A stretch of 64,000 bases of DNA. Source: Demequina sp. NBRC 110051. Lineage in GTDB: Bacteria > Actinomycetota > Actinomycetes > Actinomycetales > Demequinaceae. The stretch is taken from positions 124,001-188,000 of the forward strand of contig NZ_BBRH01000012.1 of NCBI RefSeq assembly GCF_002090055.1, in the 5' to 3' direction. Under the pieces are notes generated by a model that was given only the letters and a program-made list of their open reading frames with translations, had not been told where the DNA came from and searched no databases. This document shows positions 34,232 to 44,256 of the stretch, piece after piece. Numbering within the stretch: position 1 is the stretch's first letter; each line of letters opens with the position of its first letter. Made by a program: the position numbers and the translations under genes.

Positions 34232-35755
34232 ATGACGTCACTGCCCCGCCTGTCCACCGCCACCCTCGACGCGCTCACCGCGGCTGGGCTCCCGGCCAGC
34301 GTCGCCGCCCCGGCGCTGCCCGACCGCACAGCGCCCCCAGGCATCGTGCATCTGGGCATCGGCGCCTTTCACCGCGCACACCAGGCCGTCTTCACCCAGG
34401 CCGCCGCGGGCGCGACCGGAGACGCGCGCTGGGGCATCGTGGGCGTCACGCAGCGCAGCGCGGGCGTGCGCGACCAACTCGCACCGCAGGACGGCCTCTA
34501 CGGCGTGCTCGAGCTGTCGGATCACGGCACGCGGCTGGACCTCATTGGCCAGGTGCGCGACGTCCTGTTCCCCGCCGAGCAGACCGCGGACGTGCTCGCC
34601 GCCGTCGTGGCACCGACCACCCACATCGTGTCGCTCACCGTCACCGAGAAGGGCTACCGGCGCGCCGCCGGCGGCGGCCCGGATATGGCCGATGCCTCAC
34701 TCGCCTTCGACCTCGACCTCCTGGCGCGCGAGCTCGACGGGGCGGCCGATGCGTCCGTCACCTCCCGTAGCGCCGTGGGGCTCTTGCTCCGCGGCCTCGC
34801 GCATCGTTGGCACGCGGGCGGCGAGCCGGTCACGGTGCTCGTGTGCGACAACCTGATGGACAACGGCCCCCAGGTGGAGAGGCTCGTCCACGCGATCGTG
34901 GAGGCATGCCCCGCGGCGGCAGCGTCCGGCTTCGGCGACTGGCTGCGCGCCGCCGTCACGTTCCCGGCCACCATGGTCGACCGCATCGTGCCCGCCACCA
35001 CCGACGCCCACCGCGCCACCGCGCAGGGCTTGCTTGGCGCCACGGACGCCGGACTCGTGGTGGCCGAGCCGTTCATGCAGTGGGTCATCGAGGATCGCTT
35101 CGCGGGACCGCGTCCTGAGTGGGAACGGGCCGGTGCCCAGCTCACCGACGACGTTGGCCCCTACGAGCACACCAAGCTCCGCATCCTCAACGGCACCCAC
35201 TCGGCGCTGGCCTATCTGGGAGCCCTGCGCGGCCACGAGCTGATCGCGGATGCCGTCGCCGACCCCGAACTCCACGCCTTCGCGCGCGCGCTCATCGACG
35301 AGGACGCCATCCCGTCACTGGGACAGGTCAGCGAGATCGATCTCGCCGCCTACCGCGAGTCCGTGCTCGAGCGTTTCGCCAATGCGGCGATCGGCCACAC
35401 CACCGTCCAAATCGCGATGGACGGCTCCCAGAAGCTCCCCATCCGCTTCCTCGCCACCGCCCGCGACAGGCTCGCGGCGGGCACGGTGCCGCACGCCATC
35501 GCCCGGGCCGTGGCCGCGTGGATGCTCTACGTGCGCGAGACCAGCGCTGGGCGGCTCGAGGTGGCAGAGCGGCGCGTGGACCTCGACGACCCGCTGGCAA
35601 ATCTGCTCGGCGAGCTCGCCGCTGGGCCGCTCGATTCCCTCGCCGACAGGCTCATCGACGGCAGCGGGATCTTCCCGGCCGACGTCGCTGACGACGACCG
35701 TTTCCGTGCCGCGGTGAGATCCGCCGTCGCCGACCTCGAGGGGGTGACGGTATGA
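34232..35755 (+). CDS. Tagaturonate/fructuronate reductase (mannitol dehydrogenase family)
   Basis: 507 residues of the polyol dehydrogenase family that includes UxaB, UxuB and mannitol dehydrogenase. IVHLGIGAFHRAHQAVF near residue 38 is the N-terminal NAD motif of the UxuB/MtlK type, NLMDNGPQVERLVHA near 207 is conserved, and the Lys-containing KLRILNGTHSALAYLGALRG near 313 is the family catalytic signature. By sequence it looks like UxuB, but the coupled next gene is altronate dehydratase, so tagaturonate reduction to altronate is the likely task. ATG follows an AAAGG site 2 nt below the lacI stop. Confidence 0.88.
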   Translation: MTSLPRLSTATLDALTAAGLPASVAAPALPDRTAPPGIVHLGIGAFHRAHQAVFTQAAAGATGDARWGIVGVTQRSAGVRDQLAPQDGLYGVLELSDHGTRLDLIGQVRDVLFPAEQTADVLAAVVAPTTHIVSLTVTEKGYRRAAGGGPDMADASLAFDLDLLARELDGAADASVTSRSAVGLLLRGLAHRWHAGGEPVTVLVCDNLMDNGPQVERLVHAIVEACPAAAASGFGDWLRAAVTFPATMVDRIVPATTDAHRATAQGLLGATDAGLVVAEPFMQWVIEDRFAGPRPEWERAGAQLTDDVGPYEHTKLRILNGTHSALAYLGALRGHELIADAVADPELHAFARALIDEDAIPSLGQVSEIDLAAYRESVLERFANAAIGHTTVQIAMDGSQKLPIRFLATARDRLAAGTVPHAIARAVAAWMLYVRETSAGRLEVAERRVDLDDPLANLLGELAAGPLDSLADRLIDGSGIFPADVADDDRFRAAVRSAVADLEGVTV

Positions 35756-37308
35756 CCGAGCCAGCCACCGCACAGGCCCTGGATTTTGCCGACGTCACCA
35801 TCGTGCTTGCCGAGGGCGACGACGTCGCCGTCGCGACGCGGGACCTCTCCGGGGGCACGGTGCTCGCGGGCGCGCCTCACGGCGACATCACCGTCGGCTC
35901 GAACGTTGCACGCGGCCACAAGGTGGCTCTCAGGGACATCGCCGAGGGAGACCCCGTGCGCAAGTACGGGCAAGTCATCGGGCGTGCCACGGTGCCGATC
36001 CGGGCCGGCGCACACGTGCACGCCCACAACCTGGGCATGGACGACGGCGAGCGCGAGATCGAGGTGGGCGTGGACCGCCGCCCCACCGTGCCCGCCACCG
36101 AGCAACGCACCTTCGAGGGGTACCGCCGCTCGGACGGCTCGTGGGGCACCAGGAACTACATCGGCATCGTGACGTCGGTGAACTGCTCGGCGTCCACCGC
36201 ACGCATGATCGCGGATCAGTTCCGCGGGCCCGTCTTGGATGCCTATCCGCACGTGGACGGGGTGGTTGCGCTGACGCACGACACGGGCTGCGGCCTGGTC
36301 CCCACGAGCGAGGGCGCGCAGATCACCCGCCGCACGCTGCAGGGCTACGCCTCCCACCCCAACATGGCCGGACTCCTGGTGCTGGGCCTGGGTTGCGAGA
36401 TGCTGCCCGCAGCCACCATCCTTGACGGCGTCGCCCTGCGCGACGACCTGCCAGTGAGCACACTCACTATTCAGGAGACCGGCGGCATTCGCGCCACCGT
36501 GCGCGCGGGCGTGACCGCGATCGAGGCGATGCTGCCGGGCGTCGAGGCGCTACGACGGGAGACGGCCCCTGCATCGGCCCTGGTCTTGGGCACCAACTGT
36601 GGAGGGTCGGACGGGTATAGCGGCATCACCGCCAACCCTGCGCTGGGTTTCGCGAGCGACATGCTCATCGCCCAGGGAGGGCGCTCGGCGCTCGCCGAGA
36701 CGCCCGAGGTCTACGGCGCCGAGCACCTGCTGCTGCGCCGCGCGGTGTCGCGGGACGTGGCCGATGCCCTGGTCGCCCGTCTGCGATGGTGGGAGAAATA
36801 CGCAGAACAGGGCGGGGGCACGCTCGACAACAACCCCTCACCTGGCAACAAGGCCGGCGGACTCACCACCATCCTCGAGAAGTCGCTCGGCGCGGTCGCG
36901 AAGTCGGGCTCGTCGGAGCTGGTCGCGGTGCGCGAGTACGCGGAGAAGATCGACCTGCCTGGGCTGACGTTCATGGACACGCCCGGCTATGACCCGGTGT
37001 CCGTGACAGGGCTCGTCGCGGGCGGGGCGACCGTCGTGGTCTTCACCACGGGGCGCGGCTCGGTGCTGGGCTGCAAGCCCTCGCCATCGATCAAGGTGGC
37101 CACCAACACCGAGACCTTTGAGCGCATGCGCGAGGACATGGACCTCAACGCCGGCCGCATCGTCGACGGCACGGCCTCCTTGGAGCAGGTGGGGCGGGAG
37201 ATCTTCGAGAAGATCCTCGCCGTCGCGTCCGGCGAGCAGACGGTGTCCGAGGAATTGGACCTCGGTTCAGACGAATTCGTTCCCTGGCAGCTGGGCACGG
37301 TGACGTAG
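35752..37308 (+). CDS. uxaA: Altronate dehydratase
   Basis: 518 residues; removes water from D-altronate to give 2-keto-3-deoxygluconate. The N-terminal SAF domain (about 1-100) contains GSNVARGHKVALRDIAEGD; the catalytic part has GSWGTRNYIGIVTSVNCSAS near residue 130, LGLGCEM near 212, LGTNCGGSDGYSGITANPAL near 278 and FTTGRGSVLGCKPSP near 431, with the conserved Cys residues of iron-dependent sugar-acid dehydratases. Starts by ATGA overlap with the reductase gene. Together with uxaC, the reductase, kdgK and eda the galacturonate route is complete. Confidence 0.94.
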   Translation: MTEPATAQALDFADVTIVLAEGDDVAVATRDLSGGTVLAGAPHGDITVGSNVARGHKVALRDIAEGDPVRKYGQVIGRATVPIRAGAHVHAHNLGMDDGEREIEVGVDRRPTVPATEQRTFEGYRRSDGSWGTRNYIGIVTSVNCSASTARMIADQFRGPVLDAYPHVDGVVALTHDTGCGLVPTSEGAQITRRTLQGYASHPNMAGLLVLGLGCEMLPAATILDGVALRDDLPVSTLTIQETGGIRATVRAGVTAIEAMLPGVEALRRETAPASALVLGTNCGGSDGYSGITANPALGFASDMLIAQGGRSALAETPEVYGAEHLLLRRAVSRDVADALVARLRWWEKYAEQGGGTLDNNPSPGNKAGGLTTILEKSLGAVAKSGSSELVAVREYAEKIDLPGLTFMDTPGYDPVSVTGLVAGGATVVVFTTGRGSVLGCKPSPSIKVATNTETFERMREDMDLNAGRIVDGTASLEQVGREIFEKILAVASGEQTVSEELDLGSDEFVPWQLGTVT

Positions 37309-37388: not shown

Positions 37389-37892
37389 TCAGCCCTCGAT
37401 CGCGACAAACGCCCCCGTCGCGAGATCCTTGCGGACCGCACCCGCGGTGAACAGCCGTGCACCCATAGCCACATAGACGCCGGGACCCGCCAGCTGAGCG
37501 GCCGCGAGCGCGAACCCCAGGTTCACGTGCGCATCGGTCCCGGCCACCGTCTCGGGACGCAAAGCGCCGGTGAGCACCACGGTCACGCCGTCCGCCACCC
37601 GCGCGGCCAAGTACTGTGCCGTGTCCGCCATGGTGTCGGTGCCGTGAGTAATCACGACGGCCTTCGCATCGGCCACCGCCACCTCCCGCGCGAGCACCTC
37701 GCGGTCCGCGTCGGTCATGTCACGGCTGTCGATCGCGAGCACCCCGACCACCCGCACGGTCACCGAAGGCACCATCGTGTGCAGGATGCGCGTCGCGGCC
37801 GGCTCCCCTACCGCAAGGTCGCCCGAGAGCAGGTACTCCTTGTCGATCGTACCGCCGGTGGCGATGACCGTGATGTCCGTGGCGTGGCTCAT
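37389..37892 (-). CDS. Short (N-domain-only) asparaginase-like protein
   Basis: 167 residues, covering only the N-terminal half of a bacterial L-asparaginase (normally about 320 aa). Both catalytic threonine motifs are present: VIATGGTID near residue 10 and VVITHGTDTMADTAQYLA near residue 79, and NLGFALAAAQL near 123. The frame ends cleanly with a proper ribosome site (AGGAGG), so it looks like a natural short family member and not a truncation; such one-domain asparaginases exist. It follows ecfT by 56 nt in the same direction and may belong to the transporter operon. The substrate may not be asparagine. Confidence 0.85.
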   Translation of the reverse strand: MSHATDITVIATGGTIDKEYLLSGDLAVGEPAATRILHTMVPSVTVRVVGVLAIDSRDMTDADREVLAREVAVADAKAVVITHGTDTMADTAQYLAARVADGVTVVLTGALRPETVAGTDAHVNLGFALAAAQLAGPGVYVAMGARLFTAGAVRKDLATGAFVAIEG

Positions 37893-37948
37893 GTGCGTCC
37901 TCCTGAGGCCAGTCTCGAAGGCTCAGGATAGGCGGTGCACTCACCGGA

Positions 37949-38755
37949 TCACGCGATGGTGACGACCGCTCCCAGCTCGAATGCGCCCACCACGGCCACC
38001 AGGGTCACGGCCACGACGGCCACGTCGAGCGCTCCGATCCGCAACTGCGCGATCCGCAGCTCCCGCCCCTGCGCGGCCGTGAACCCGCGCGTCTCCAAGG
38101 ACTCAACCGTGGTGCGCACCGACTTCGCGGTGTTGAGGAAGATCGGATAGAACGCCTGGACGGCCCACGTCCCCCAGCGCCATAGCGCCCTCATCCCCAG
38201 GAACCCTCGCGGCCCCTGCGGGCTGCGCAGCCGCAGACCCGTGAACACCGTCCCGAACTCCTCGAACAGGATCGGCATCATGCGATAGCCATACGAGACG
38301 CCGAACGCGAGCAGCTCGGGCGCCTTCCATGCGAGCAGCCCCGTGCTGAGCTCCTCGGGGTCGAGCGACACGAACGCCGCGATCGACGCGAGTGACACGG
38401 TCGCGAGCTTCAGGGTGATCTCGACGAGCGCGAGGGCCGTCTCGTGGTCGCCGCCAAAGACCCATGCCGCGCCAAACGCGTACGCAAAATCGGTGACGAA
38501 TCCGATGAGGAACAGGCCCAGCACTAGCGGCCCCACGCGTGCGAGCGCCGCGGAGACCGCGGTGAGCCCGAACAGCGCGATGATCGTCACCAGGTCGTGC
38601 GTGAGCCACGGCACCACCGCGAGGATCAGGTACCAGCTGATCACCATGCGCGGATCCATCTTGGCGAACAGCCCGCCGCGGGTCGCATACGCGGTGCGGA
38701 TCAGCTCGAGCTTCACCCACTCGACGGACAGGACGTCCCTGGTCTTGCGGCTCAT
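37949..38755 (-). CDS. ecfT: ECF transporter T (transmembrane) component
   Basis: 268 residues with about five to six membrane segments. The KMDPRMVISWYLIL start region near residue 32 and the two cytoplasmic coupling motifs, LRLRSPQGPRG near 174 and VESLETRGF near 217 (Ala/Ser-Arg-Gly type), identify an EcfT/CbiQ protein, which links the substrate-binding S subunit to the ATPases. Overlaps the ATPase gene by ATGA. Vitamins, metals or other small molecules are usual cargo; here the partner genes point elsewhere (see findings). Confidence 0.9.
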   Translation of the reverse strand: MSRKTRDVLSVEWVKLELIRTAYATRGGLFAKMDPRMVISWYLILAVVPWLTHDLVTIIALFGLTAVSAALARVGPLVLGLFLIGFVTDFAYAFGAAWVFGGDHETALALVEITLKLATVSLASIAAFVSLDPEELSTGLLAWKAPELLAFGVSYGYRMMPILFEEFGTVFTGLRLRSPQGPRGFLGMRALWRWGTWAVQAFYPIFLNTAKSVRTTVESLETRGFTAAQGRELRIAQLRIGALDVAVVAVTLVAVVGAFELGAVVTIA

Positions 38756-40515
38756 GCGCGCACCTCCATCCGGGCGGCGGCGTCCGTGAGCGCGACGGCC
38801 TCACGCCACTGAGCGACGGAGAGCGGAGCAGGCGAAATGCCCAGCGCACGCCCCAGCGCCGTGATCTGCGGCGGCACCACGCGTGCGCCCTCCAACAACG
38901 CATCGGACGAGAACAACTCGAGGGGCGTCACGTCCGCGAGCACTCCCCCTCCTCCCAGGACGATCACGCGCGTGGCCCATTCCGCGACCAGGTGCATGTC
39001 ATGTGTTGCGACCACGGCGGCGGCAATCGCCCCGGAAAGCTCGTCGAGCATCGCGATGACCGAGTCGCGGCTGGCCACGTCGAGCGAGGCGGTGGGCTCG
39101 TCGGCCAGCAGCAGCGAGGGCGTCATCGCGAGGCCGATGGCCAGCGTCGCGCGGCGTTGCTGACCACCCGACAGGGTGCGGCCATCGCGGTCGGCAAAGT
39201 CGCTGAGCCTCACGCGATCGAGCACGCGGTCCACGAGCGCATCGGCGTCGTCGCGCTTCCGCCCCGCAGGGAAAAGCCTCACGTCGGCGCGGATCGAGTC
39301 CTTGAGGAACATCTGCTCGGGCCGCTGAAAGAGATACGCGGCGTGCTCGGCGAGCCTTGTCGCCGACGACTTTTTGGTGTCGATCCCGTCGAGCGTCACC
39401 GATCCCCCGCGCGGCACCTGCAGCCCGCACAGCAGCCGCATCAGCGTGGACTTCCCGGCGCCGTTGCCGCCCACGAGCGCCACGCGGTCGCCCGCGCGGA
39501 TGGTGAGGTCCACGCCGCTCAGCACCGGAAGGAGGTCGCCCGCCACGGAGCGATAGCCATGGGAGACGGCCGATGCGACCGCGACCGGGCGGCGCTCGTC
39601 GCCATCCGTACGGGCCGGGTCCACCTCGGACGAGGCGAGACGGGGAACCGAGCCGGCCACGGCATCGGCCGTCCAGGAATCCCGCTGGCGTGCGCCGGCG
39701 GTGCGCAGCACGGCGGCCGCCTCCTCCACGGTGCGCGGCGCGGCCGCGAGGTCGAGCCCCTCGCACGCGGCGACGATCTGAGGGGCCGGGATGCCGTGGG
39801 ACGCGAGCTCGGCCGCACGGGCGGCGGCCTGTGGCGCGGGCAGGTGCCACACGGGCGCCCCGTCGTCCATGAGCACCACGGACTTCGCGTATTGCGCGAT
39901 GAATTCGGCGTGATGCTCGATCACGATGACGGTGATGCCGTGGACCTGGTTGAGCTCCGTGAGGCGTTCATACAAGGCGTGGGCGCCGGCGGGGTCGACC
40001 TCGGCCACGGGCTCGTCGACCACGATGATGCGCGGACGCATCGCGAGCACGGACGCTAGCGCGGTCAGGTGGGCCTGGCCGCCCGAGAGCTGCCACACGA
40101 ACCGATCCGCGAGGTGGGCGATGCCCAGCATCTCCATGGCCTGCTGGGCACGCTCGGCGTAGTCGGACATGCCGAAGTTGGTGGGGCCGAACTCGATCTC
40201 GTCGCGCACGCGCGGGCGCACCAGCTGGTTCTGAAAGTCCTGGTAAACATAGCCTACGGTGGACGACAGGGCGGCAACGGAGGACTCGTAGGTGTCCACG
40301 CCGTCCACGCGGACCTCGCCCGCGAAGTCGCCCTCCCAGTAGTGCGGCACCAGCCCGTTGAGTGTCTTGCACAGGGTGGTCTTCCCCGAGCCGTTGCCGC
40401 CGATCACGGCCACGAAGTCGCCCTCCTCGATGGTGAGGCAGACGTTGCGCAGGCTGTCGCGCTCGGCTCCGGGGTAGCGGAAGCTCAGGCGGTCGATCTC
40501 GATGATGGCGCTCAT
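38752..40515 (-). CDS. ECF transporter ATPase, two fused ABC domains
   Basis: 587 residues with two nucleotide-binding domains in one chain, equivalent to EcfA and EcfA'. Domain 1: Walker A GGNGSGKTTLCK near residue 38, signature LSGGQAHL near 143, Walker B IIVVDEP near 160. Domain 2: Walker A GGNGAGKSTLMR near 347, signature LSGGQQRRATLA near 452, Walker B LLLADEP near 474. Both sites look intact. It follows the S component by 87 nt and is coupled to ecfT. This fused form is common in actinobacteria. Confidence 0.93.
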   Translation of the reverse strand: MSAIIEIDRLSFRYPGAERDSLRNVCLTIEEGDFVAVIGGNGSGKTTLCKTLNGLVPHYWEGDFAGEVRVDGVDTYESSVAALSSTVGYVYQDFQNQLVRPRVRDEIEFGPTNFGMSDYAERAQQAMEMLGIAHLADRFVWQLSGGQAHLTALASVLAMRPRIIVVDEPVAEVDPAGAHALYERLTELNQVHGITVIVIEHHAEFIAQYAKSVVLMDDGAPVWHLPAPQAAARAAELASHGIPAPQIVAACEGLDLAAAPRTVEEAAAVLRTAGARQRDSWTADAVAGSVPRLASSEVDPARTDGDERRPVAVASAVSHGYRSVAGDLLPVLSGVDLTIRAGDRVALVGGNGAGKSTLMRLLCGLQVPRGGSVTLDGIDTKKSSATRLAEHAAYLFQRPEQMFLKDSIRADVRLFPAGRKRDDADALVDRVLDRVRLSDFADRDGRTLSGGQQRRATLAIGLAMTPSLLLADEPTASLDVASRDSVIAMLDELSGAIAAAVVATHDMHLVAEWATRVIVLGGGGVLADVTPLELFSSDALLEGARVVPPQITALGRALGISPAPLSVAQWREAVALTDAAARMEVRA

Positions 40516-40602
40516 GGGGCGGTGCTCCTGTGGTGGTGCGGGGGGGCGGTGCGGGAGGGACGATGCCGCGGGCGCCCGCGTGGGGCGCCCGCGGCATCCG
40601 GG

Positions 40603-41508
40603 TCAGTTCTCGGTCTTGCGGCTGCGGCTGAACTTCACGAGCGCGACGCCCACGAGGAAGGCGATCGCGGCGGCGCCGACGCCCACCCACAGGAAGCCCG
40701 AGCCGTAGGTGTCGAGGAAGTCGGGCTCGAACACGCCGATCGCCACATCCCATGCCTCGAGGAAGGCGAAGAAGAAGGCGGCGACCGCGAGGGCCAGGGC
40801 CACGCCCACGAACAGGCCCGTGCGCGGCGCGCCACCCTGAATCGGCTCGCCGGGCACGCGTGGACGCATCCCGAGCAGCGGCTCGATGCGGCCGTGGAGG
40901 GCGGGGATCAGCCACATGGCGGGCAGGACGCCGAACAGCACGCCCGTGATGAGGATGTCGACCGCGAAGCCGATGCCCTCGAGCACCAGGATCGACTCGG
41001 GAAGCCCCTCGACGTACTCGGCGTCCTCGACGCCGATCCACACCTTCGACAGGTCAACAATCGCGGACAGCGCCTTGTCGATGACGACGACCGTCACGGC
41101 GGCGATGGCGATCTGCACCTTGTTCTTGGGGTTGCGGATCATCGAGCCCGCGATGAACAGCGCGAGGAACATCTGGATGATGCCCTCGATCTCGGAAAGT
41201 CCGGAGAAGTCGCCCATCAGCAGGTCCACGAAGATGACCTCACCCACCGGAGCGCCGAGCGCCGCCCAGAAGGGGTTGAGCAGGGCGACGAGTGTCAGCG
41301 GCACGAACACGAAGTAGCTGACGGACACGTCGACGGGTCCGATCGACACCTCGGGGATGACCTCGATGACGATGTTCGCGACGCCGGACAGCGCCATCGA
41401 GAGGACAAAGATCATGAGCTTCTGCGAGCCGCTGAGGTCGCGGCGCAGTCCTGCTGCGGTGCCTCGAAGACGGCCGGCCCGCTCATCGGGAACGGTGGTC
41501 TGGGACAT
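40603..41508 (-). CDS. Probable ECF transporter S (substrate-binding) component
   Basis: 301 residues, mostly membrane segments (about seven), with a cytoplasmic N-terminus. Position immediately upstream of the fused ATPase and EcfT genes is the main reason for the S-component call; the sequence (for example NPFWAALGAPVGEVIFVDLL near residue 85) matches no S family of known cargo that I recognise. The start at 41508 follows AAGGAG; the frame extends further but only through arginine-rich shadow sequence of the HAD gene. Substrate unknown. Confidence 0.75.
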   Translation of the reverse strand: MSQTTVPDERAGRLRGTAAGLRRDLSGSQKLMIFVLSMALSGVANIVIEVIPEVSIGPVDVSVSYFVFVPLTLVALLNPFWAALGAPVGEVIFVDLLMGDFSGLSEIEGIIQMFLALFIAGSMIRNPKNKVQIAIAAVTVVVIDKALSAIVDLSKVWIGVEDAEYVEGLPESILVLEGIGFAVDILITGVLFGVLPAMWLIPALHGRIEPLLGMRPRVPGEPIQGGAPRTGLFVGVALALAVAAFFFAFLEAWDVAIGVFEPDFLDTYGSGFLWVGVGAAAIAFLVGVALVKFSRSRKTEN

Positions 41509-41546
41509 GTCTGCTCCTTGGGAGTAGCTGCTGCTGGTGGGGTGGA

Positions 41547-43157
41547 TTACTGGGACAGAGACAGCGACGCGGCGTCGCGCAGCAGCGAGGCGAGCCCCGC
41601 GGCCGAGTCGACGACGTCGGTGGCGAGGCCGCTCTGGAGCGCCTCGTCGATCGGGGCGTCCGCGACGGCGCCGCCGCGGACGATGACACGGCGCGCGATG
41701 CCGGCCGCGAGCGCGCCTGCGGCGTCGGCATGCGGCTTGTCGCCGTAGAACCATGTGGTGGCGGGGTCGGCGCCGGAGATCGTGAGCGCCTCGCGCACGA
41801 TGGACGCGCCGGGCTTACGCTCGCCATGCTCGTCGGAGCACACGTAGGCGCCGATGAGCTCCGCCAGTCCGTGCTCGCGGCACGCGTCGCGCACGGCGCG
41901 GCCGGACAGGGTGTTCGACACGACGACGACCGGCATGCCCTGGGCGCGGCACTCCTCGAGCGCCTCGCGCACGCCGTCGCGCAGCACACGCCGGCTCTTC
42001 GCGCGGCCGTAGCGGTGCATGAGGTCGTGGCACTCGGCGGCGAGCACCGCGCGGGCGCGCTCGTCGAGGTCGCGTCCGAAGTGCTCGACCCAGAACTCGT
42101 GGGGGGTGGTCTCGACGAGCGAATCGCCCTTGGCGGCCGCGCGGCGCTCGCGTGCGGTCACGATCATCTGGATCGCGTCGCCCGGCTCCAGCGGTGCGGC
42201 TCGGGTCGACAGCAGGAACGCGAGGCGCTCCCCCAGCCGCATCATCTCGGCGGGGTTCTTCTCCGACAGGGAGATGACGCCGCCGTGGTCGATCAGCAGC
42301 GCGCCGCGGCGCGAATTCTCGGAGGCCGATGCCGTGGCGGACCCCCGTACGGAACTCTCCTCGGCACGGGCCTCCAGCGAGGCGACCAGCGCATCGGCGA
42401 GCCCCTCGGGGGTCTCAAATGTCGCATCGGCCGTATGAGCGACCGCGAACGGCGGGTGGTCGGTGTGCTTGTCACGGGTGATGAGGACGCGGCCGATGCC
42501 GGCGCGGCGCCCGGCGACGACGTCGCGGTCGAGCGTGTCACCCACGTACCAGCAGTCCGCCGGATCGGCACCCACGCCCGCGGCCGCGAGTGTGAGGATG
42601 CCGGGGTGGGGCTTGCGCATCCCGACCTCGTCCGAATACACCTGCACGGCGAAGGAGTCGTAGAGGCCCAGCGACGCGAGGATGCGCCGATGGGAGCGCC
42701 CGGAGTGCGCGTTGGAGACGATGCCGACGGGGATGCCGTGGCTCGCGGCCGTGTCGAGCAGTCGGCGGATGCCGGGGCGCAGGTGATGGTCGGTGATGAG
42801 GGTCTGGAGGGTGTCGAGGAGCTCGCTCGCCTCGGCGACCAGTAGCGCGCGGGCGTCCTCCGGCAGGTCCCCGGCGAGGAAGTCGCCCACAATTTCCCTG
42901 TGAGTGAGCTCGCGCGGCTCGGGTAGGCGGCTCGACGCGTGCTTCCAGTGGGTGAGCGCCGTGAGGCCAGCGTCGAGCGAGGCGCGCGCCTGGGCGACGG
43001 GGACGTCGATGATGCCGCGCTCGAGCAGCGCCGCGACGTGCGCCGCGGCGTCGTCCAGGCCCGCGGGACGCTTGGCCGTCGTGATGATGACGCCGCCGAA
43101 GTCGAGCAAGAGGGCGGCGGGCACGGGCAGGGGCGTCGCGGGCTGGGTGTCGTTCAC
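41547..43157 (-). CDS. Tandem HAD-superfamily hydrolase (two HAD domains)
   Basis: 536 residues containing two successive HAD-IA-type domains. Domain 1 (about 15-250): LLLDFGGVI, then SNAHSGRS, RKPHPG and WYVGDTLDRD. Domain 2 (about 288-520): LLIDHGGVI, then VSNTLSGRAV, ERKPGAS and FYGDKPHADAAG. All four HAD motifs are present twice; in both motif I the second Asp is Gly, as in the YihX/epoxide-hydrolase-like subgroup. A Ser/Ala-rich linker joins them. First gene of the ECF operon and divergent from a LacI gene. Phosphatase or dehalogenase-like action on the imported compound is possible but not shown. Confidence 0.85.
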   Translation of the reverse strand: MNDTQPATPLPVPAALLLDFGGVIITTAKRPAGLDDAAAHVAALLERGIIDVPVAQARASLDAGLTALTHWKHASSRLPEPRELTHREIVGDFLAGDLPEDARALLVAEASELLDTLQTLITDHHLRPGIRRLLDTAASHGIPVGIVSNAHSGRSHRRILASLGLYDSFAVQVYSDEVGMRKPHPGILTLAAAGVGADPADCWYVGDTLDRDVVAGRRAGIGRVLITRDKHTDHPPFAVAHTADATFETPEGLADALVASLEARAEESSVRGSATASASENSRRGALLIDHGGVISLSEKNPAEMMRLGERLAFLLSTRAAPLEPGDAIQMIVTARERRAAAKGDSLVETTPHEFWVEHFGRDLDERARAVLAAECHDLMHRYGRAKSRRVLRDGVREALEECRAQGMPVVVVSNTLSGRAVRDACREHGLAELIGAYVCSDEHGERKPGASIVREALTISGADPATTWFYGDKPHADAAGALAAGIARRVIVRGGAVADAPIDEALQSGLATDVVDSAAGLASLLRDAASLSLSQ

Positions 43158-43180
43158 ACCGGCGACGCTAGCCAGGGCCG

Positions 43181-43196
43181 ACTGGAGCGTTCCAGT
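43181..43196. promoter_or_regulatory. Candidate LacI operator for the ECF/HAD operon
   Basis: ACTGGAGCGTTCCAGT: arms ACTGGA/TCCAGT pair perfectly around a core with central CG, as LacI-family operators do. It lies 24 bp upstream of the HAD start codon in the region shared with the divergent lacI gene. Confidence 0.55.
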
Positions 43197-43260
43197 ACCG
43201 TTGCCGTTTGTTCGTCCGCGTTCGCCGAATGTTCACCTCGGTCTCTGATTGAATCGGCTC

Positions 43261-44256
43261 ATGCCCGCCGACCGCGTCGCCCCCACCATCGTGGACGTCG
43301 CGCGCGCGGCGGGGGTGTCGAAGTCGCTGGTCTCCCTGGCCATTCGCGGCGATGCGGGGGTCTCGGATGCGACCCGCACGCGCATCCTGGCGGTGGCCGA
43401 TGACCTCGGCTACCGGTCAAACGTGCTGGCTCGCGGGCTCGCGCGCGGACGGACGCAGGTGATCGGTGTACTCGTCTCCGACCTGTCCAACCCGTATCAC
43501 GCGGACGTGGTCGCGGGTATCGAGTCGCGCGCCGAGCACGCGGGGCTCGGCACGGTGATCGGCCATGGCCGCTCACAGCCCGAGGTGCTCGCCGTGCGCC
43601 TGGACCAGATGCTCGACCTGGGCGTGGACGGGGTGATCGTGGTCTCGGCGATGCTTCCCGCCGAGGCACTCGACGCCGCCGCCACCCGCCGTCCCCTCGT
43701 CATGGTGGGCCGGCCCTTCGAGCAGCCCCGCCGCGTCAGCGTGGTGCGCAACCACGACGAGCGCGGCGCCGCATTCGCGCTCGACCACCTGCTGGGCCTG
43801 GGCCACCGGCGCATCGTGCACCTGGCGTCGTCCCGGCGTGCCGCGGCGACGGCCAGGCGTCACGCCTACGGCGAGGCGATGACGCGCGCCGACCTGCCCG
43901 CGACCACGCTGTGGACGGACGAGGGCGGCACCGCCGCGATGCTCGCCGCGGCCCAGACACCCGAAGGCCCCACCGCGTGCTTCGCCGGCAACGATCGCAC
44001 CGCCGCCACCCTGCTCCACGATGCGCTCGACGCGGGCCTCGACGTCCCCGACGGACTCAGCATCGTGGGCTACGACGACGCGCAGATCGCGCGCCAGGTG
44101 CGCCCGGGCCTCACCACGGTCGCGCAGCCGCGCGAGGCGATTGGGCGCGAGGCCGCCCGGCTGCTCCTGTCACGCATCGACGGCGACCGCGACACCGTCG
44201 AGGTCACGCTCGAGCCGAGCCTGATCGTGCGGGGAACCACCTCCGCCCCCTGCTAG
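43261..44256 (+). CDS. LacI-family regulator, next to the ECF operon
   Basis: 331 residues: helix-turn-helix TIVDVARAAGVSKSLVSLAI, hinge RSNVLARGLARGR, then the sensor domain with DLSNPYHADVVAGIE, FEQPRRVSVVRNHD and VGYDDAQIARQVRPGLTT. An in-frame TTG lies four codons upstream (43249); I prefer the ATG at 43261. Divergent from the HAD-ECF operon with a matching operator between. LacI proteins usually sense sugars or nucleosides, which hints at the kind of cargo the ECF system imports. Confidence 0.88.
   Translation: MPADRVAPTIVDVARAAGVSKSLVSLAIRGDAGVSDATRTRILAVADDLGYRSNVLARGLARGRTQVIGVLVSDLSNPYHADVVAGIESRAEHAGLGTVIGHGRSQPEVLAVRLDQMLDLGVDGVIVVSAMLPAEALDAAATRRPLVMVGRPFEQPRRVSVVRNHDERGAAFALDHLLGLGHRRIVHLASSRRAAATARRHAYGEAMTRADLPATTLWTDEGGTAAMLAAAQTPEGPTACFAGNDRTAATLLHDALDAGLDVPDGLSIVGYDDAQIARQVRPGLTTVAQPREAIGREAARLLLSRIDGDRDTVEVTLEPSLIVRGTTSAPC

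Follow-up and report, generated by a model that had tools for sequence, protein, structure and literature searches.

To judge from sequence comparison, the gene cluster analysed here encodes an ECF importer that belongs to a real and conserved family, one whose S component has no name in the libraries searched. A phosphatase-type partner is nearly always encoded near the importer, and the partner sequences, from bacteria and salt-loving archaea, fall into at least four unrelated enzyme families. The cluster lies in a 64-kb stretch of Demequina DNA, the whole of which is called the window here. The divergent LacI gene and the genes for the tandem HAD protein (HAD2), the S component, the fused EcfAA' and EcfT were all confirmed in it, and the features are as follows.

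43249..44256, + strand: LacI-family repressor; Pfam LacI HTH and Peripla_BP_3; the complete actinobacterial loci examined have an orthologue in this position.
43181..43196, no strand: LacI-type operator ACTGGAGCGTTCCAGT, palindromic at 14 of 16 positions.
41547..43157, - strand: tandem HAD (subfamily IA) hydrolase, 536 aa; Pfam PF00702 twice.
40603..41508, - strand: S component of a new family, 301 aa; unmatched in Pfam and in curated NCBIfam; predicted S fold.
38752..40515, - strand: fused EcfA-EcfA' ATPase, 587 aa; TIGR04520/04521 (ECF_ATPase_1/2) above cut-off; two ABC_tran domains.
37949..38755, - strand: EcfT transmembrane component, 268 aa; Pfam CbiQ PF02361, E 7e-11, 42.6 bits (cut-off 25).
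37389..37892, - strand: short-chain L-asparaginase (RrA-like), 167 aa; Pfam PF00710, E 5e-28.

The LacI gene is on the plus strand and the tandem HAD, S component, EcfAA', EcfT and short asparaginase genes are all on the minus strand with short intergenic gaps, the EcfT and EcfAA' genes sharing a 4 bp overlap. The LacI start codon is either TTG at 43249 or, more likely, ATG at 43261. The open reading frame listed for the S gene begins too far upstream, and the most likely start is the ATG at 41508, the position at which the orthologues start in the alignment. Matches to TIGR04521 and TIGR04520 above cut-off, in two stretches each, identify EcfAA' as an ECF ATPase, and PF02361 marks EcfT as a T component of the CbiQ/EcfT type. 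The S, EcfAA' and EcfT genes are neighbours in nearly all loci, as in the dedicated sets of group I ECF systems. On these sequence features the system has the testable properties of a group I ECF importer, with S, A-A' and T as its own set.

The S component had been assigned to no recognised family in the first-pass annotation and this description stands. The window protein gave no Pfam match, even at E 10, and no curated NCBIfam match, a PDB search with its sequence found nothing convincing and no S-component family was present among the 25 Pfam families listed for 34 members of the S family (E up to 10); by sequence it thus matches no known vitamin S family. Four annotated plasmid records were checked, and each labels the family member a 'hypothetical protein'. 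An AlphaFold model was built from 34 sequences (pLDDT 75). When this predicted model was compared using VIA-align, rows 1–17 were all ECF S components with Z of 9.8–11.9, and while helical bundles may reach middling Z by chance, here there is a clear gap beneath the top 17 rows, with BtuM entries at Z 6.5–6.8 followed by other proteins at 6.0 or less. The 17 include the group II vitamin S components RibU, FolT, ThiT, PanT and BioY, a metal-transporter S component and YkoE. Foldseek with the same model gave nothing below E 0.001, although its top rows were S components. The six-helix S fold is present in the model, which is a prediction and not a solved structure, and its core covers approximately residues 24–213 followed by two additional C-terminal helices. 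The group II vitamin proteins share this core fold (Z 10–12 across 150–180 residues) whereas the Demequina protein has no detectable sequence family, carries the two further helices and has its own ECF module encoded alongside. The predicted topology places the conserved charged residues E49, E90, E106, E108, D152, E161, D162, E164 and E177 in the outer half of S, where K155 is the sole basic one. So placed, this acid-rich conserved face argues against a simple anionic phosphate and would fit a ligand that is cationic, zwitterionic, bound to a metal or polyhydroxylated.

When the S protein was used to scan genomes, 35 loci were returned, the named relatives among them being up to 97% identical to the window in the S component; wider searches added more. 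The gene order LacI (divergent)-HAD2-S-EcfAA'-EcfT was found in all complete loci examined from the class Actinomycetes, including one on a Streptomyces cavourensis plasmid, and is present in at least ten actinobacterial genera besides Demequina (Brachybacterium, Brevibacterium, Cellulomonas, Kocuria, Jonesia, Microbacterium, Corynebacterium, Rhodococcus, Gulosibacter and Flavimobilis). This strong conservation leaves the earlier proposal of a linked system standing, though not in its five-gene form: HAD2, S, EcfAA' and EcfT with LacI are conserved, but the asparaginase is present in some loci only. The module is patchy, occurring in 10 of 47 genomes of the host family and 9 of 297 genomes of the class. 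The neighbourhood comparison found no other widely shared neighbours that might point to the cargo, only genes of generic kinds such as those for ABC ATPases, alcohol dehydrogenases and response regulators. In Brachybacterium massiliense mt5 (locus L012, 8246–10909, + strand) HAD2 and S share a single 887-aa reading frame, possibly a genuine fusion or else an error in the draft sequence. One Bacilli genome has a relative of the S component alone (L090, 9199–10080, + strand), without adjoining EcfAA' or EcfT. A separate observation at a Bacilli locus was a tandem pair of tmRNA copies, both full length (L084, 12128–12978, + strand; Rfam 191.7 and 189 bits).

Across 38 orthologues of HAD2, the nucleophile Asp, the motif II Ser, the motif III Lys and an acidic motif IV (GD..D) are kept nearly everywhere in both domains. 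Motif I reads DxGGV in both, the usual second Asp being replaced by Gly. A search of solved structures with HAD2 gave general HADs only. On these motifs a phosphatase activity for HAD2 is plausible.

In Bacilli and Clostridia, and in two genomes from a different actinobacterial class, the HAD and LacI genes are replaced by a PHP gene behind EcfT and a gene for an RpiR regulator. One of these two actinobacterial genomes has a single HAD in addition, and Emergencia has an additional gene of the inositol-monophosphatase family. The partner genes behind EcfT on haloarchaeal plasmids are ComB with a HisJ-like PHP in Halobacterium hubeiense, two IMPase-type genes in Halopiger and ComB alone in Halostagnicola. 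The type of partner phosphatase tracks the S tree. The ComB and inositol-monophosphatase families take their names from phosphatase activity and we know of no chemistry except phosphate-ester hydrolysis that is known across all of the partner families. The first-pass annotation had noted a phosphatase-like enzyme in the cluster; that part of its proposal is strengthened by finding unrelated phosphatase families at the same position in other lineages, and it is this repeated occurrence in separate lineages that suggests a phosphatase link.

Against NCBIfam the PHP protein scores best with CehA/McbA metallohydrolase, at a score under the cut-off, and solved structures gave only distant matches (PsfC at 1e-12, endonuclease Q), so no substrate was taken from them. 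One Clostridia locus has a gene for a DeoD-type purine nucleoside phosphorylase directly upstream of S; no phosphatase was seen there and the contig breaks off 104 bp beyond EcfT. In another (L092, 8363–19501) the genes for RpiR, S, EcfAA', EcfT and PHP stand directly before PhnD-, PhnC- and PhnE-type genes together with PhnG and PhnH (C-P lyase), and a C-P lyase link was set aside since it is seen at this one Clostridia locus only. Divergent from one haloarchaeal S gene is a gene for a xylose-isomerase-like TIM barrel (L106, 6951–7736, - strand) with a match below cut-off to CbiR, a cobamide phosphodiesterase.

The dyad ACTGGAGCGTTCCAGT precedes the HAD start by approximately 24 bp. Its core, CTGGARCGYTCCAG, has a single exact match in the whole Demequina genome, at this same dyad (43181–43196). 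Of 37 LacI-HAD intervals, 26 contain the operator TGGAACGTTCCA with one mismatch or none, where shuffles at two mismatches gave an expectation of 0.16. The other 11 intervals are from Brachybacterium and Brevibacterium loci, and several of them carry a different palindrome, CTGCAGATCTGCAG. Given that the exact core is found once in the Demequina genome and that the motif is conserved at the same place, the LacI repressor looks to be dedicated to this operon. A wider LacI regulon was rejected; apart from the one exact operator genome-wide there are two more sites with one mismatch, which is no more than a control with the backward pattern gives. The palindromic operator and its conservation thus agree with the local, sugar-type repressor control that was first suggested for the cluster. 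The accompanying suggestion, that the riboswitch control usual for ECF systems does not apply, also holds: no riboswitch was found with Rfam in the 64-kb window or adjoining S in seven Bacillota loci. L032 has a SAM riboswitch, which adjoins other genes and is approximately 1.7 kb away from S. In several Paenibacillus-like loci the Bacilli RpiR-S interval contains the palindrome TGTAAATATTTTTACA. The RpiR proteins, read by eye, appear to be without the usual SxSGxT phosphosugar loop. The regulators single out no cargo; LacI is nearest to regulators of ribose, cytidine and purine genes, its top scores being to the RbsR, CytR and PurR models, yet all of these are far under the cut-offs.

Because a phosphatase is the only steady enzyme partner, a probable link of the cargo to phosphate is indicated. 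The reading which we favour, with somewhat less than even confidence, is that the ECF importer is a dedicated one and that its cargo carries, or soon acquires, a phosphate ester which the partner enzyme takes off. More tentative again is the broader proposal that a new ECF family of Actinomycetota, Bacillota and haloarchaea imports a phosphorylated organic metabolite and that its dedicated cytoplasmic phosphatase has been swapped for unrelated families (tandem HAD, two PHP kinds, inositol-monophosphatase type and ComB) while the importer stayed unchanged. The local LacI repressor would hold the importer operon off. The S component would bind a small scavenged metabolite, whose entry through the importer would be driven by ATP, and the tandem HAD would strip the phosphate ester either from the cargo as such or from the form that it first takes in the cytoplasm. 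The dephosphorylated product, probably the inducer as well, would then enter general metabolism. In the other lineages a phosphatase of the PHP, ComB or inositol-monophosphatase type would have the same role. What the analysis shows is the genes and their order, the predicted fold of S, the conservation of the operator and the swap of phosphatase family among lineages; from these we infer the phosphatase activity, the phosphate-bearing cargo and the relief of repression by cargo or product. Counting against the phosphate reading are the acidic S face, the apparent lack of SxSGxT in RpiR and the DxG motif I of HAD2, together with the Clostridia locus with a nucleoside phosphorylase and the Bacilli locus with S alone.

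It is rather less likely that the cargo, perhaps a sugar, nucleoside, polyol or cationic compound, enters without phosphate and is phosphorylated by a housekeeping kinase, with the linked phosphatase reversing or controlling that step or clearing a harmful phosphorylated by-product. The conserved outer face of S would suit a neutral polyhydroxyl or cationic ligand, and the order of the LacI scores and the purine nucleoside phosphorylase gene upstream of S in one Clostridia genome are also in keeping with such a cargo. However, this explanation requires an unlinked kinase in each lineage; no kinase is common to the neighbourhoods and the phosphatase is the only enzyme kept near.

The system might instead be a diverged transporter that takes in a known cofactor, or a phosphorylated precursor of one (thiamine or HMP phosphates, FMN, PLP or cobamide fragments), which the phosphatase readies for salvage, but this seems unlikely. 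The closest comparison is with YkoEDC, a group I ECF transporter of thiamine or HMP, which likewise has S, fused EcfAA' and EcfT in a single operon as a dedicated module (PMC5037267). The S model also shares the fold of YkoE (5edl, Z 9.8), and the weak match to CbiR next to one haloarchaeal copy would fit a cobamide fragment. In contrast, the YkoE family is unmatched by sequence to the Demequina S component, and YkoEDC is under a THI-box riboswitch with no linked phosphatase in the described operon, whereas the present system is controlled by LacI or RpiR and is paired with a phosphatase. The lack of riboswitches noted above, the failure to recognise any S-component Pfam family and the absence of cofactor genes common to the neighbourhoods all count against a cofactor importer.

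Less likely still, the partner enzymes may cut some other bond, HAD2 acting as a dehalogenase-like or other hydrolase and PHP acting on an ester in the manner of CehA/McbA. The DxG motif I in both HAD domains and the best, though below cut-off, NCBIfam match of PHP would be consistent with this, but the haloarchaeal ComB and inositol-monophosphatase partners are named for phosphatase activity and the hydrolysis of phosphate esters is the chemistry in common.

Import of an amide-bearing sugar or nucleoside to be processed by the asparaginase-like enzyme, which the first-pass annotation had suggested with the amidase as a working part, is very improbable: in the window the asparaginase gene follows EcfT on the same strand after a gap of 56 bp, but the gene is present in only 5 of 10 Demequina loci (the window, L002, L003, L004 and L009) and in no other genus, and its product resembles the stand-alone RrA family. 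The best PDB match was 8uoo (E 1.6e-33), and the closest solved entries are short asparaginases of 185 residues, which we take to be RrA. The window protein has one N-terminal asparaginase domain, a length within 160–185 aa and a close match to RrA, and is therefore of the RrA type. RrA is the stand-alone short-chain L-asparaginase of Rhodospirillum rubrum and also has a single N-terminal domain, of 172 aa compared with 167 in the Demequina protein (PMC10949315), which differs only in its genomic position beside the ECF operon. The distribution rules out the asparaginase as a core part and, on the sequences compared, it is a lineage-specific neighbour outside the conserved group. EcfT and the asparaginase are in a single frame in Demequina litorisediminis (L004); this apparent fusion was put down to assembly frameshifts, the EcfAA' frame being broken too, and the completeness listed for G011, evidently the same genome, is 50%. 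Tail to tail with the asparaginase gene of the window is an open reading frame (35752–37308, + strand) that by eye resembles altronate dehydratase.

The literature search found no description of the present gene combination. ECF transporters are best known for the uptake of vitamins and metal ions. If the favoured reading of a phosphate-linked cargo is true, an ECF family under sugar-type repressors, whose one steady enzyme partner across bacteria and archaea is a phosphatase, would widen the range of ECF cargo, perhaps to phosphate-bearing nutrients. The swap of phosphatase family among lineages also offers a way to the cargo itself, as the substrates common to the HAD2, PHP, ComB and IMPase-type partners should name it.
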